Shown: one piece after another, positions 51,321-54,883 of the stretch
How the letters are laid out: every line of letters starts with the position of its first letter
Numbering within the stretch: position 1 is the stretch's first letter
Assembly: GCA_951812755.1 (NCBI GenBank)
Contig: OX638329.1
Location: forward strand, 2,589,339 to 2,653,338
Direction of reading: 5' to 3'
Length of the DNA: 64,000 bases
Source: an uncultured Latescibacterota bacterium
GTDB lineage: Bacteria > Latescibacterota > UBA2968
Made by a program: the position numbers and the translations under genes
Notes under the pieces: generated by a model
Seen by the model: only the letters and a program-made list of their open reading frames with translations
What the model was told of the DNA's origin: nothing
Database searches by the model: none

Positions 51321-53495
51321 TCACAACAAAATTCCCTGAACGGGTTCTTCGACGAGTCCAGCCCGAATGCGTTGCGATAGGGTCGTGTGTCGCTCTGCAA
51401 CCCGATTGTTGCGAACGGCCATTCCCAGAGCCTGTTTTGTGCCTACCAGCACGACCAGTTCTCGCGCCCGCGTAATGGCTGTGTACAACAAGTTGCGCTG
51501 TAACATCATATAGTGTTGTGTGGTCAAAGGCATTACCACGGCGCGAAATTCTGCGCCCTGGCTTTTGTGTACACTCATGGCATAGGCCAGTACCAACTCA
51601 TCCAACTCCGAGAACTCGTATTCTAAGACGCGGTCCTGAAATCGTACGCGCAATATATCATCCTCTATTCCGTGAACGCGCCCAATATCCCCGTTAAAAA
51701 CATCGCGATCGTAGTTATTTCGCACCTGCATCACTTTGTCGCCCACCCGAAAGCGGATACCGCCCCGCGTCATTTCTTGGCCTTTGGGATTTAACTTGTC
51801 TTGTAAAACCCGGTTGAGATTGTTCGCGCCGGTTTCGCCCCGATACATGGGTACGAGTACTTGAATATCTTCAATACTGTCCAGACGATATGTGTGCGGT
51901 AAGCGTGCAGCACACAATCCGCAAATAGTCTCGACGACTTGATCGGGTTCAGAGACTTCGATAAAAAAGAAATCCGCATCGCGGTCATTCCGCACTTCTG
52001 GCATCTCACCGCGATTAATCAAGTGGGCATTGGTAACAATATGGCTCGTTTGTGCCTGCCGAAAGATCTCGTTGAGTTCCACGACTTCTACAGTGCCAGA
52101 CGCAATTACATCTTTCAACACATTCCCCGCACCAACCGATGGCAACTGATCGACATCGCCTACCAGGACCACCGAAGCACTGATTGGTACAGCGCGCAAC
52201 AGACTGTTCATCAGAACCGTATCGACCATGGATATTTCATCGACAATCAGGGCCTCGATCTCCAAAGGGTTATCAAAATTTTTCTCAAACGCCATTTCAG
52301 ATGGACTAAACTTCAGCAATCTGTGGATGGTTTTTGCCTCATATCCGGTTGCCTCAGACATCCGCTTGGCTGCTCTTCCCGTTGGTGCTGCCAGTGCGAT
52401 TGTTTTCTTTCGCGCTTCTAAAAGCGCGATGAGTCCCTTAATGGTCGTTGTTTTGCCCGTTCCCGGGCCACCTGTTAGGACCAGCAAATTGTGCGATAAT
52501 GCCTTTTCCAATGCCAATTTTTGACGGGGCGCGAATGTTACCCCATCGCGCTGTTCTATGGCTTTGATCTCTGCCGGGATATTGCCGAGTTCTATGCGTT
52601 GCACCTGGGATAATTGATAGCACCGCGTTGCCGCGCCCTGTTCGGCATAGTACAAATGCGGCAAATATACCCGCTTGTCATCTACCACAATCGATTCTTC
52701 GGAGAGCAATTGTGCTATGCACGGTGCGATTGCATCGATGGGCACGTCGAGTGCTTTGGCACACGATTCGATGAGGGCGTCTTCGGGCAAGAAAACATGT
52801 CCTTCTTTGTCTGCTGCTTCATTGAGGACATGCAAAAGACCGGCTTGAATGCGCCGGTCTGAATGTGCGGGGATGCCCATTTTTTGCGCGATGCGGTCTG
52901 CCGTCAAAAATCCAATGCCCCATACATCTACCGATAGGCGATAGGGATTTTCTTTAATCAATTCAACGGCTTCATGCCCGTACTTTTTCCATATTTTTAC
53001 GGCGTATCCCGTGCCCACTTCGTGCGATTGCAAGAATAGCATCACATTGTGGATCTCGCGCTGGTCTTCCCAGGCTTCGATAATCCACTTTGCGCGTTTG
53101 GCTCCCAATCCCTCGACTTCGACCAATCGCTCGGGATCGCTTTCGATGACATCGAGAGCTTCTTTCCCAAAGTGATCCACAATTCGCTTTGCCGTGACCG
53201 GCCCGATGCCTTTGATTAATCCCGAACCCAAATATCGCCGCATTCCCTCTACGGTAGATGGATATACGGTCTGGTAGGATTCAATTTTGAACTGCGCGCC
53301 ATATTGCTTATGGGTTGTCCATTCGCCTTCCAAAACCACGGTTTCGCCCGGGTTGATCGACAGCATTTCACCCACAATGGTCGCCAGGCGCTCGTTGTAG
53401 GCGGCAGATCCCTCTACCTGCAAACGGGCAACAGTGTATCCGTTTTCTTCGTTTTGAAATGTAATGCGATCCACAATTCCGCGAAGCTGAGCCAT
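51321..53495 (-). CDS. recD2: RecD2-type DNA helicase
   Basis: The 724-residue protein has the RecD2 layout: an N-terminal OB-like domain, helix-hairpin-helix motifs (GSGLIKGIGPVTAKRI, GLGAKRAKWI) and a superfamily 1 motor with Walker A LTGGPGTGKTTTI, DEISMVDT, VGDVDQLPSVG and the C-terminal MSVHKSQGAEF. RecD2 acts in DNA repair and replication-fork handling without RecBC. It is monocistronic, with its own promoter. Confidence 0.94.
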   Translation of the reverse strand: MAQLRGIVDRITFQNEENGYTVARLQVEGSAAYNERLATIVGEMLSINPGETVVLEGEWTTHKQYGAQFKIESYQTVYPSTVEGMRRYLGSGLIKGIGPVTAKRIVDHFGKEALDVIESDPERLVEVEGLGAKRAKWIIEAWEDQREIHNVMLFLQSHEVGTGYAVKIWKKYGHEAVELIKENPYRLSVDVWGIGFLTADRIAQKMGIPAHSDRRIQAGLLHVLNEAADKEGHVFLPEDALIESCAKALDVPIDAIAPCIAQLLSEESIVVDDKRVYLPHLYYAEQGAATRCYQLSQVQRIELGNIPAEIKAIEQRDGVTFAPRQKLALEKALSHNLLVLTGGPGTGKTTTIKGLIALLEARKKTIALAAPTGRAAKRMSEATGYEAKTIHRLLKFSPSEMAFEKNFDNPLEIEALIVDEISMVDTVLMNSLLRAVPISASVVLVGDVDQLPSVGAGNVLKDVIASGTVEVVELNEIFRQAQTSHIVTNAHLINRGEMPEVRNDRDADFFFIEVSEPDQVVETICGLCAARLPHTYRLDSIEDIQVLVPMYRGETGANNLNRVLQDKLNPKGQEMTRGGIRFRVGDKVMQVRNNYDRDVFNGDIGRVHGIEDDILRVRFQDRVLEYEFSELDELVLAYAMSVHKSQGAEFRAVVMPLTTQHYMMLQRNLLYTAITRARELVVLVGTKQALGMAVRNNRVAERHTTLSQRIRAGLVEEPVQGILL

Positions 53496-53548: not shown

Positions 53549-53577
53549 ATTATACGACACTTGCCACGGTTTTACAA
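53549..53577 (-). promoter_or_regulatory. recD2 promoter
   Basis: TTGTAA (53572-53577) and TATAAT (53549-53554) are separated by 17 bases on the minus strand, and the start would be about 45 bases before the recD2 ATG. Confidence 0.7.
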
Positions 53578-53670: not shown

Positions 53671-53765
53671 ACCCGAAAGCTATTGACACACCGCATGTAC
53701 CTGTCGGTGTGATCTGGGGTCCTCGCGCCGTCCCGCCAAGAACTCGCGCGAGGGCCTTTCTTTTT
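53671..53765 (+). other. Structured element ending in a terminator, no ORF
   Basis: A perfect 7-bp hairpin (CACACCG with CGGTGTG, 53686-53710 region) is nested within GACCC/GGGTC arms. A second hairpin of 11 pairs with one G-U (53718-53728 with 53746-53756) is followed by TTTCTTTTT. The GGTCC of the second stem overlaps the closing arm of the first, so the two folds compete. No gene lies upstream on this strand within 50 kb in the same transcript or downstream before 54251. The terminator is well supported; what is terminated is unknown. Confidence 0.5.
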
Positions 53766-53821
53766 GGTACACGAGATGGTTGCCTTCGGGCCAACTATGT
53801 TACAAATTAACTTTTATAAAA

Positions 53822-53950
53822 AACAAAAAGCACCTACTCGTCCCTCTACCAAATCGCCAAAGGGAACAAGCAGGTGCCTCGTGGACTGGTATGGCAACCC
53901 TGCTGAAACGCTGTGCGTTCCGAAAATATTGTTTTTTTTACAGGCCAGTC
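53822..53950 (-). ncRNA. Putative small non-coding RNA of about 130 nt
   Basis: A strong promoter (53957-53985) on the minus strand would start a transcript near 53950. It ends in a 16-bp hairpin (53830-53845 with 53861-53877) followed by a T-rich tract (plus-strand A-rich 53829-53816), a good intrinsic terminator. The 5' GACTGG can pair with CCAGTC in the middle, and GGAACGC ACA GCGTTTC forms a 7-bp stem between them. There is no coding frame. I could not match it to 6S, SRP, tmRNA or RNase P RNA. Confidence 0.55.
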
Positions 53951-53956
53951 GGGAAA

Positions 53957-53985
53957 AATATAGCCAATCTTATATTTGGGGTCAA
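53957..53985 (-). promoter_or_regulatory. Promoter of the putative small RNA
   Basis: TTGACC (53980-53985) and TATATT (53957-53962) are 17 bases apart on the minus strand, identical in hexamers and spacing to lepA P1 and the antitoxin promoter. Confidence 0.65.
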
Positions 53986-54051: not shown

Positions 54052-54066
54052 GAATTTGAGTAAATA

Positions 54067-54222
54067 ACTGACGTTACGCAGGTCTGGGTTTTTGTCATGC
54101 TGAGCGGAGTGGAACGGAGCCGAAGCATCTATTCCACCTGCGCTATGAGTAGATTTTTCGACTCCGCTGCGCTCCGCTCAAAATGACAGGCCCATTATAT
54201 TGTGTCTATGCGTAACATCAGT
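54067..54222. mobile_element. MITE-like element, 156 bp
   Basis: The ends are inverted repeats of 14 bases with one mismatch (ACTGACGTTACGCA at 54067-54080 and the complement of 54209-54222). A second, inner pair of imperfect arms begins GTCATGCTGAGCGGAG (54094) and GTCATTTTGAGCGGAG (complement ending near 54186). The element is flanked by a 5-base direct repeat AAATA (54062-54066 and 54223-54227), which looks like a target-site duplication. It carries no gene, so a transposase would have to act in trans. It ends 28 bases before the tesA-like start. Confidence 0.65.
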
Positions 54223-54250
54223 AAATAAGTAGAAATATGAGGATAAAAAG

Positions 54251-54883
54251 ATGAAGCGGTTTCTTATTGTTATTTTGCTCGGATTGATATGGACAGTTCA
54301 TGCTGAAGAAGATCGCAAGGTGATTTTGTTTTTAGGGGATAGCCTGACCGCGGGTTATGGTCTGGATAAAACGCAGGCTTTTCCCGCGCTGATTCAGGCG
54401 AAGATCGATTCGCTTGGGTGGGCGTTTAATGTGGTTAATGGTGGATTGAGTGGCGAAACATCGGCGGGAGGGTTGCGGCGGGTCAACTGGTTGTTGCAGC
54501 GAAAAATCGATGTGCTGGTGCTGGCATTGGGTGGCAACGATGGCTTGCGGGGGATTCCCACGACTGAAATGCAGCAAAATTTGCAGGGGATTATAGATCT
54601 CGCAAAAGAGAAGTATCCAGATATTCAGATCATACTTATGGGTATTGAAGCACCGCCGAATTTGGGAGAGCTATATACGACGGCTTTCCGCGCGGTGTTT
54701 CCGGCTCTATCTGAAAAGAATCGCGTGCTTTTGATACCCTTTTTATTAGAAGGGGTTGGCGGGGTTCCAGAACTGAATCTGCCAGACCGCATTCATCCCA
54801 ATGCTGAAGGGCATCGGATTATAGCGGAAACCGTGTGGCGTGTGCTTAAACCGGTTTTAAAAAAAGTGAGAAGTGAGAAGTAA
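54251..54883 (+). CDS. tesA: TesA-like GDSL esterase/lysophospholipase
   Basis: The 210-residue protein has a signal peptide (1-18) and the SGNH blocks FLGDSLTAGYGL (catalytic Ser), NGGLSGETS, LGGNDGLRG and DRIHPN (Asp, His). It probably hydrolyses thioesters or lysophospholipids in the periplasm. GAGG lies 10-12 bases before the ATG. It is near ybbA and ybbP, as in E. coli, although here it faces them. The last residues VRSEK and the stop are written by GTGAGAAG-type repeats. Confidence 0.87.
   Translation: MKRFLIVILLGLIWTVHAEEDRKVILFLGDSLTAGYGLDKTQAFPALIQAKIDSLGWAFNVVNGGLSGETSAGGLRRVNWLLQRKIDVLVLALGGNDGLRGIPTTEMQQNLQGIIDLAKEKYPDIQIILMGIEAPPNLGELYTTAFRAVFPALSEKNRVLLIPFLLEGVGGVPELNLPDRIHPNAEGHRIIAETVWRVLKPVLKKVRSEK

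Follow-up and report, generated by a model that had tools for sequence, protein, structure and literature searches.

A terminated RNA between recD2 and tesA of an uncultured Latescibacterota bacterium: probable representative of a family of transcription-termination switches present in two phyla

A terminated RNA in a gene-free region

What is the short RNA that appears to be transcribed and terminated on the minus strand between recD2 (51321 to 53495, minus strand) and a tesA-like gene (54251 to 54883, plus strand) of an uncultured Latescibacterota bacterium: a free small RNA or the leader of a gene? Within the window, i.e., the whole stretch of 64,000 nucleotides that was analyzed, the first-pass annotation had proposed a new small RNA at this place, and the gene positions agree with it that the region is free of genes. 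The parts that it described were found again. Its promoter (TTGACC-17-TATATT) was recovered on the minus strand by a promoter scan at 53985 to 53957, with the −35 box TTGACC at 53985 to 53980, a spacer of 17 nt, and the −10 box TATATT at 53962 to 53957. There were 15 promoter-like sites in 8 kb compared with 9.0 ± 3.2 in shuffled sequences, and the promoter alone is therefore weak evidence. The transcript, which had been estimated at about 130 nt, comes to ca. 138 nt (53950 to 53813, minus strand), taking its start from the promoter and its end at the U tract; it is delimited by sequence and folding and by covariance-model matches in relatives. Folding of 140 nt gave −54.1 kcal/mol (z = −5.68), a value that none of 200 shuffles equaled. 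In this fold, GACUGG at the 5′ end (P1 5′ strand, 53945 to 53950) pairs with CCAGUC in the middle of the RNA (P1 3′ strand, 53884 to 53889), as the annotation had suggested for a closing pairing. The clear internal stem is a 7-bp inner hairpin (P2, GGAACGC/GCGUUUC, 53905 to 53921), and the terminator hairpin is a strong one, with a stem of ca. 16 bp (5′ arm GCACCUGC..., 53862 to 53877; 3′ arm, 53830 to 53845) followed by the U tract UUUUUGUUUUUU (53814 to 53829). Both arms are backed by folding and covariation, and the 5′ arm also by the duplex register described below. A simple terminator scan did not return this terminator because its loop exceeds the limit of 8 set in the scan.

Searches against known RNAs

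A comparison with Rfam and a search for covariation in relatives, the two computational checks that the annotation had proposed, were both carried out and both favored a new structured RNA; the second is reported with the structure. The covariance models of Rfam 15 gave no match in the window at the gathering threshold, and with relaxed thresholds over 401 nt the matches were all subthreshold, with E values of 4.2 or worse. At 11 homologous loci there were four matches at E ≤ 1, none of them on the RNA, and nothing fell on it in the search of the neighboring stretch. The RNA type is absent from Rfam 15, the RNA family library searched. Two known RNAs were rejected as candidates: the bacterial small SRP RNA (RF00169), which was found at another place in this genome, and 6S RNA (RF00013), for which 21 genomes gave no match. 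No tRNA or tmRNA was found within the window, and a plasmid search left the RNA without a match. The literature searched on riboswitches, Latescibacterota RNAs, “Armatimonad-” and DUF1854 contains no account of this RNA; supplements and subscription journals were outside its scope and might hold an unnamed motif. The nearest match was the orphan variant Gd4v, as described in the available text of PMC9788692.

Distribution in two phyla

Among 60 genomes (relatives and its own) searched with blastn, 11 gave a match: nine of the 11 members of the genus, the genome of the window included, and two more genera of the same family, in which the identity was 73 to 78%. The family was represented by 15 genomes, 11 of them with a match. 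These relatives retain the promoter, the stem and the terminator; such conservation means that the RNA is not a chance feature and bears out what the first-pass annotation had said about a random occurrence being improbable.

Beyond this range we used covariance models, none of which contains the promoter. With the first of them (R1), made from 11 sequences, the RNA was also recognized in three further members of the class (G021, G022, and G024). A pattern scan of a genome collection yielded 106 stretches, all 106 of which were rescored with R1 and nine accepted as members. One of the nine belongs to another phylum, an Abditibacteriaceae MAG (JAFAZH010000036.1; 50.8 bits, E = 6e-11) that NCBI places in Abditibacteriota and whose phylum under GTDB we take to be Armatimonadota. 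With the later models R2 and R3, run over 291 genomes of this second phylum, 17 genomes had matches at E ≤ 0.1, of which 16 remained at E ≤ 0.01. After reading the sequences, 30 of the 33 R3 matches were accepted, in 13 of the 291 genomes, and those in G206, G268 and G270 were set aside as nonmembers. One genome of this phylum carries six copies, another four, and a complete one three. On the Latescibacterota side, R3 gave matches at E ≤ 0.05 in 17 of 64 genomes, and 14 were accepted. The 44 verified copies are the sum of these 14 and 30, with the nine of the window's genus each counted singly. Some weak matches (L168, L174 to L176, L189 to L192, and L273) stay outside the 44, and G012 (L039/L167; E = 4.4e-5 with R3) stays outside the accepted set. 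Other weak model matches were judged false, being terminator-only matches or missing the motif (L040 to L043, L166, L169 to L172, L185, L187, L188, and L217 to L219). Viral contigs gave 16 pattern matches and no members by model, and R3 gave no match in the phylum to which an Acidobacteria-titled MAG belongs (396 genomes, in a run without a positive control).

Conserved structure and competing pairings

P1 is paired in all of the 22 sequences aligned (100% of cells; consensus GRYUGR/YCARYC in most), with compensatory changes in four of the six base pairs, i.e., the covariation that the annotation had proposed to look for. Taking P1 and the terminator together, 95.1% of the cells are paired vs 85.4% in column shuffles, of which 0 of 500 reach the observed figure, and 38 to 46% in slid controls; the alignment of the 22 rows followed a model that already contains this structure, which biases the figure in favor of the pairing. 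On the 3′ side of the P1 5′ strand there is CC in most sequences and, a few bases further on, an A-rich stretch with C-N-A at its end, predicted to be single stranded (A..AAAAACNAUA, 53927 to 53939 in the window). In a relaxed form this motif is present at 36 of 36 loci, within the first 30 nt of the RNA. It should be noted that these loci (30 from the second phylum and six from Latescibacterota, with the window's genus represented once) are not 36 independent events, since many of them stem from closely related genomes. P2 forms a hairpin in family f1, where it varies with compensation, and is absent or different elsewhere. Upstream, TTGAC or TTGAT is found 34 to 41 nt before the first base of P1, again at all 36 loci. 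Promoter and RNA evidently move as one module, with the transcript beginning at P1.

The P1 loop contains a segment of the form GCAGG-nnnn-CGCG, which reads AGCAGG-nn-UGCC in the window (53893 to 53904) and has CGUC in family f4. Its complement comes after the P1 3′ strand, as CGCG-CCUGC, GGC-n-CCUGC or GACG-CCCGC, and doubles as the terminator 5′ arm. The antiterminator (or pseudoknot) and the terminator would therefore be mutually exclusive. The copy in the window is intact, with both AGCAGG/CCUGCU and UGCC/GGCA able to pair. When the best duplex between P1 loop and terminator arm was sought, the register was the same in nearly all of 26 sequences. In L194 an insert shifts the best duplex to an overlapping segment, in L197 and L196 the duplex continues past the common register, and L193 was left out because its P1 3′ strand was not located by exact match. 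With the register set by hand in 18 sequences, 153 of 162 cells pair, which was reached by 0 of 5,000 shuffles. Four positions are doubly changed (compensatory), a count that 547 of 5,000 shuffles also reach. For single sequences, the duplex had p < 0.05 against dinucleotide-shuffled loops in only 5 of 26. What argues for the loop/arm pairing is the common register together with the covariation, and not any one sequence.

Genes downstream of the RNA

The nearest downstream ORF is co-directional with the RNA at 30 of 35 loci by script and at 34 of 35 after a check by hand (at one of the 36 the contig ends and gives no call), and the nearest upstream ORF is so at 14 of 36. Four of the five exceptions proved to be gene-calling errors: L197 and L198 (the same as L242 and L243) precede an ABC exporter, and L209 and L038 precede a small HTH-like ORF. 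G014 is the true exception, with no co-directional gene nearby. The distance from the RNA to the start codon is mostly 10 to 110 nt, rising to 146 to 251 nt in the ABC group and to 316 to 317 nt before recD2 in the window's genus.

The first gene could be assigned at 29 of the 30 second-phylum loci. It codes for a GNAT acetyltransferase at 12 of them (eight by Pfam and four by plain similarity), an ABC exporter at six (two of them tested, and with DUF1854 directly behind in L227, which was tested, and visibly in L236), a methyltransferase at three, and an uncharacterized protein of 554 to 565 aa, followed by a GCS2 ligase, at two. Single loci have DUF4037; an APH/EcKL kinase followed by DUF4037; a radical SAM protein followed by GNAT-, methyltransferase-, ABC exporter- and DUF1854-like genes (read by eye); PPDK_N; MutS2; and a PpiC-like protein (read by eye). 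Among the Latescibacterota, G021 has two ABC exporters and DUF1854 behind the RNA (the first exporter and DUF1854 were tested), and G013 has a DUF4037-like protein with a score below the curated cutoff. In family f4 (G022 and G024; L037 and L038), an HTH-like ORF of 59 to 60 codons with a Shine-Dalgarno-like stretch and a weak RWP-RK match lies ca. 45 nt behind the RNA. Modifying enzymes and exporters make up most of these genes, but MutS2, PPDK_N, uncharacterized proteins and recD2 are also among them. An ABC exporter extended by an additional part at its N terminus, accompanied by a DUF1854-like gene one or two genes on, is found in both phyla (L200, L207, L227, and L236), and we regard the same exporter behind the RNA in both as the strongest single sign of cis regulation. 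Against the cyanophycin-associated ABC family of NCBI these proteins score 600 to 644 bits vs a cutoff of 880, so they are relatives rather than members of it. Two DNA-related enzymes, MutS2 (G099, L239) and recD2 (window's genus), occur among the resistance-type genes.

Proposed mechanism and alternatives

We consider it probable that the RNA represents an unlisted family of cis-acting, riboswitch-like switches of transcription termination, located most likely at the start of mRNAs that often code for drug-modifying or drug-exporting enzymes. The sequence directly shows the promoter, P1, the terminator, the two segments that compete and the position as a leader. Features by which riboswitches are recognized are found here: a conserved structured RNA with covariation in distant lineages (two phyla, four of six P1 pairs), a place in the 5′ leader of protein genes (the 30 or 34 of 35 loci given above, G014 not among them), and an expression platform whose alternative fold uses the conserved domain (153 of 162 cells, with weak significance in single sequences). 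Transcription would begin at the first base of P1, which would fold as it emerges, its loop offering GCAGG-nnnn-CGCG or GCAGG-nnn-GCC. This segment would pair with the next stretch (CGCG-CCUGC or GGC-n-CCUGC) while the terminator 3′ arm is still to be transcribed, and an H-type pseudoknot, or antiterminator, would result. By default, the more stable terminator would reclaim the segment and the transcript would stop near 130 nt, and a signal that stabilizes the fold made of P1, the A-rich motif and the pseudoknot would let RNA polymerase read into the downstream gene. Since the terminator would reclaim the segment unless the fold is stabilized, inducing compounds would turn the gene on; this ON direction is suggested by the way in which guanidine-IV and other switches with a pseudoknot work. 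The chances that the signal is a small molecule seem evenly balanced, and perhaps it is a toxic or antibiotic-like compound, to judge from the GNAT, APH-like, DUF4037, methyltransferase and ABC exporter genes. A bolder version, unlikely in our opinion, is a new riboswitch class that would sense an antibiotic or toxic natural product (or a common chemical core) directly and would, in two phyla with few cultured members, induce a set of exporters and drug-modifying enzymes; promoter and fixed +1 start would belong to one module copied before up to six different operons per genome. If the proposed switch is right, one intergenic region of an uncultured bacterium would have given a new class of RNA switch with its 44 verified copies. 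The ligand would reveal how these bacteria sense chemical attack, which an RNA of 140 nt makes directly testable, and there would be a lead to the functions of DUF1854, DUF4037 and several orphan GNAT proteins.

The main rival to a toxic compound as the signal is one based on a protein or on RNA polymerase itself, i.e., a leader switch driven by an RNA-binding antiterminator or a put-like RNA acting from a fixed +1. It would account for the fixed distance between promoter and RNA at 36 of 36 loci, for an A-rich motif so close to the 5′ end, and for the diversity of downstream functions. However, no conserved regulator gene was seen beside the RNAs, and metabolite switches typically have such a compact pseudoknot that overlaps a terminator, which makes this explanation somewhat unlikely. 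Decidedly less likely still is a free trans-acting small RNA, in which the terminated transcript of 130 nt would itself be the product, acting on mRNAs by pairing or on a protein by binding. The RNA has indeed its own promoter and strong terminator and a conserved single-stranded A-rich stretch, and there is no close co-directional gene in the window's genus and none at all in G014. Nevertheless, up to six copies per genome stand before different genes, a co-directional gene follows directly at 34 of 35 loci by the hand check, and the RNA contains a competitor of its own terminator; its 5′ leader position and this competing segment make the trans-acting reading probably wrong for the family. 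G014 and, arguably, the window's genus are the only cases in which no gene follows that the RNA could control in cis. What stands from the “new small RNA” of the first-pass annotation is a new structured RNA that has a promoter and a terminator of its own, and what probably falls, for the family, is the free trans-acting gene.

Comparison with known systems

The cis-acting termination switch that we favor resembles the fluoride (crcB), ZTP (pfl) and preQ1-I riboswitches, in which the terminator 5′ arm lies within the aptamer pseudoknot and the ligand-bound fold excludes termination; unlike them, it matches no Rfam family and precedes other genes. In the available text of PMC11611296, these three are counted among the switches in which a pseudoknot or kissing loop arises upon binding. 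With the guanidine-IV (mepA/GGAM-1) riboswitch and Gd4v, as far as the available texts go, the RNA shares a 5′ hairpin, a pseudoknot to the terminator hairpin, a terminator platform and several gene families, including efflux and GNAT genes (PMC7736828, PMC9788692, PMC12186494, PMC11611296). In the guanidine-IV logic given in two of these texts, a ligand-stabilized pseudoknot averts termination and the gene is ON (PMC12186494, PMC11611296). The common outline and the GNAT genes (PMC9788692 and PMC12186494, available texts) could make the RNA a divergent relative of these switches, but several differences render this very unlikely. The guanidine-IV partner, in the available description of PMC12186494, is a loop within the terminator stem, whereas here the partner is located at the base of the 5′ arm, in its paired part. 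The present RNA also has its conserved A-rich stretch, it has no Rfam match in any mode (in a release that may not include guanidine-IV), and no sugE, mepA or transaminase is found among the tested genes behind it. Finally, neither of its two phyla is among those in Table 1 of PMC7736828 or in the available text of PMC9788692.

The ermK, tetM, lmo0919 and bmrCD attenuators (PMC5418344, available text) also combine a terminator and an antiterminator in the leader of ABC, methyltransferase or comparable genes, and the present RNA, with such a pair of structures and resistance-type genes behind it, would fit ribosome-dependent attenuation by a leader peptide, of the erm or lmo0919 type. Such ribosome-dependent attenuators need a translated leader frame, according to the same text, whereas upstream of the terminator in 27 RNAs there is no conserved start codon or short reading frame (ATG is present in 2 of 27, and the GTG or TTG frames are not shared among them). 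The leader-peptide attenuator was rejected, and we consider it exceedingly improbable. The aac/aad aminoglycoside riboswitch (Jia et al. 2013), a disputed case in the available text of PMC5418344, likewise precedes, as a leader RNA, genes of the acetyl- or nucleotidyl-transferase type; it is proposed there to unmask a ribosome binding site, whereas the present RNA has an intrinsic terminator.

The locus in the window's genus

The switch of the window is intact and so probably in use. Its next co-directional gene, recD2 (51321 to 53495, minus strand; TIGR01448), starts 316 nt away and has a promoter-like site of its own at 53577 to 53549; at this distance, the local target is uncertain. That recD2 is the target in this genus is possible, and we put it forward tentatively; the RNA may also have a role here as a free terminated RNA. 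It is not essential in the genus, as G005 and G008 lack it. G005 keeps recD2, tesA and, between them, a second conserved hairpin element (element 2), which is followed directly by the start of tesA (L265, G005:C226:3000-4258); the remainder of the neighborhood is retained. In G008, the recD2-like and tesA-like matches are far apart.

Element 2, recognized by its conservation, is located between the RNA and recD2 (53688 to 53766). It has ca. 78 bp and is nearly invariant in the genus, with a hairpin, the conserved loop GAGUYYUUGGCGGGACG (minus strand) and a conserved flank; on the plus strand it resembles a terminator. G013 and G014 have two copies of it behind the RNA, and others are located elsewhere in G002, G005, G008, G013 and G014. 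On the minus strand it precedes recD2, a permease-like ORF (G002 and G008, by eye), an APH_6_hur kinase (G014) and a DUF4037-like gene (G013), and one copy in G013 is near a glyoxalase-family gene. It may be a second leader element. A repeat of ca. 170 bp is inserted at 54055 to 54228, between tesA and the promoter of the RNA; G002 matches the window on both sides of this stretch but not in it. The repeat has inverted ends (CTGAYGTTACGCA) and is present in ca. 40 copies in its own genome.
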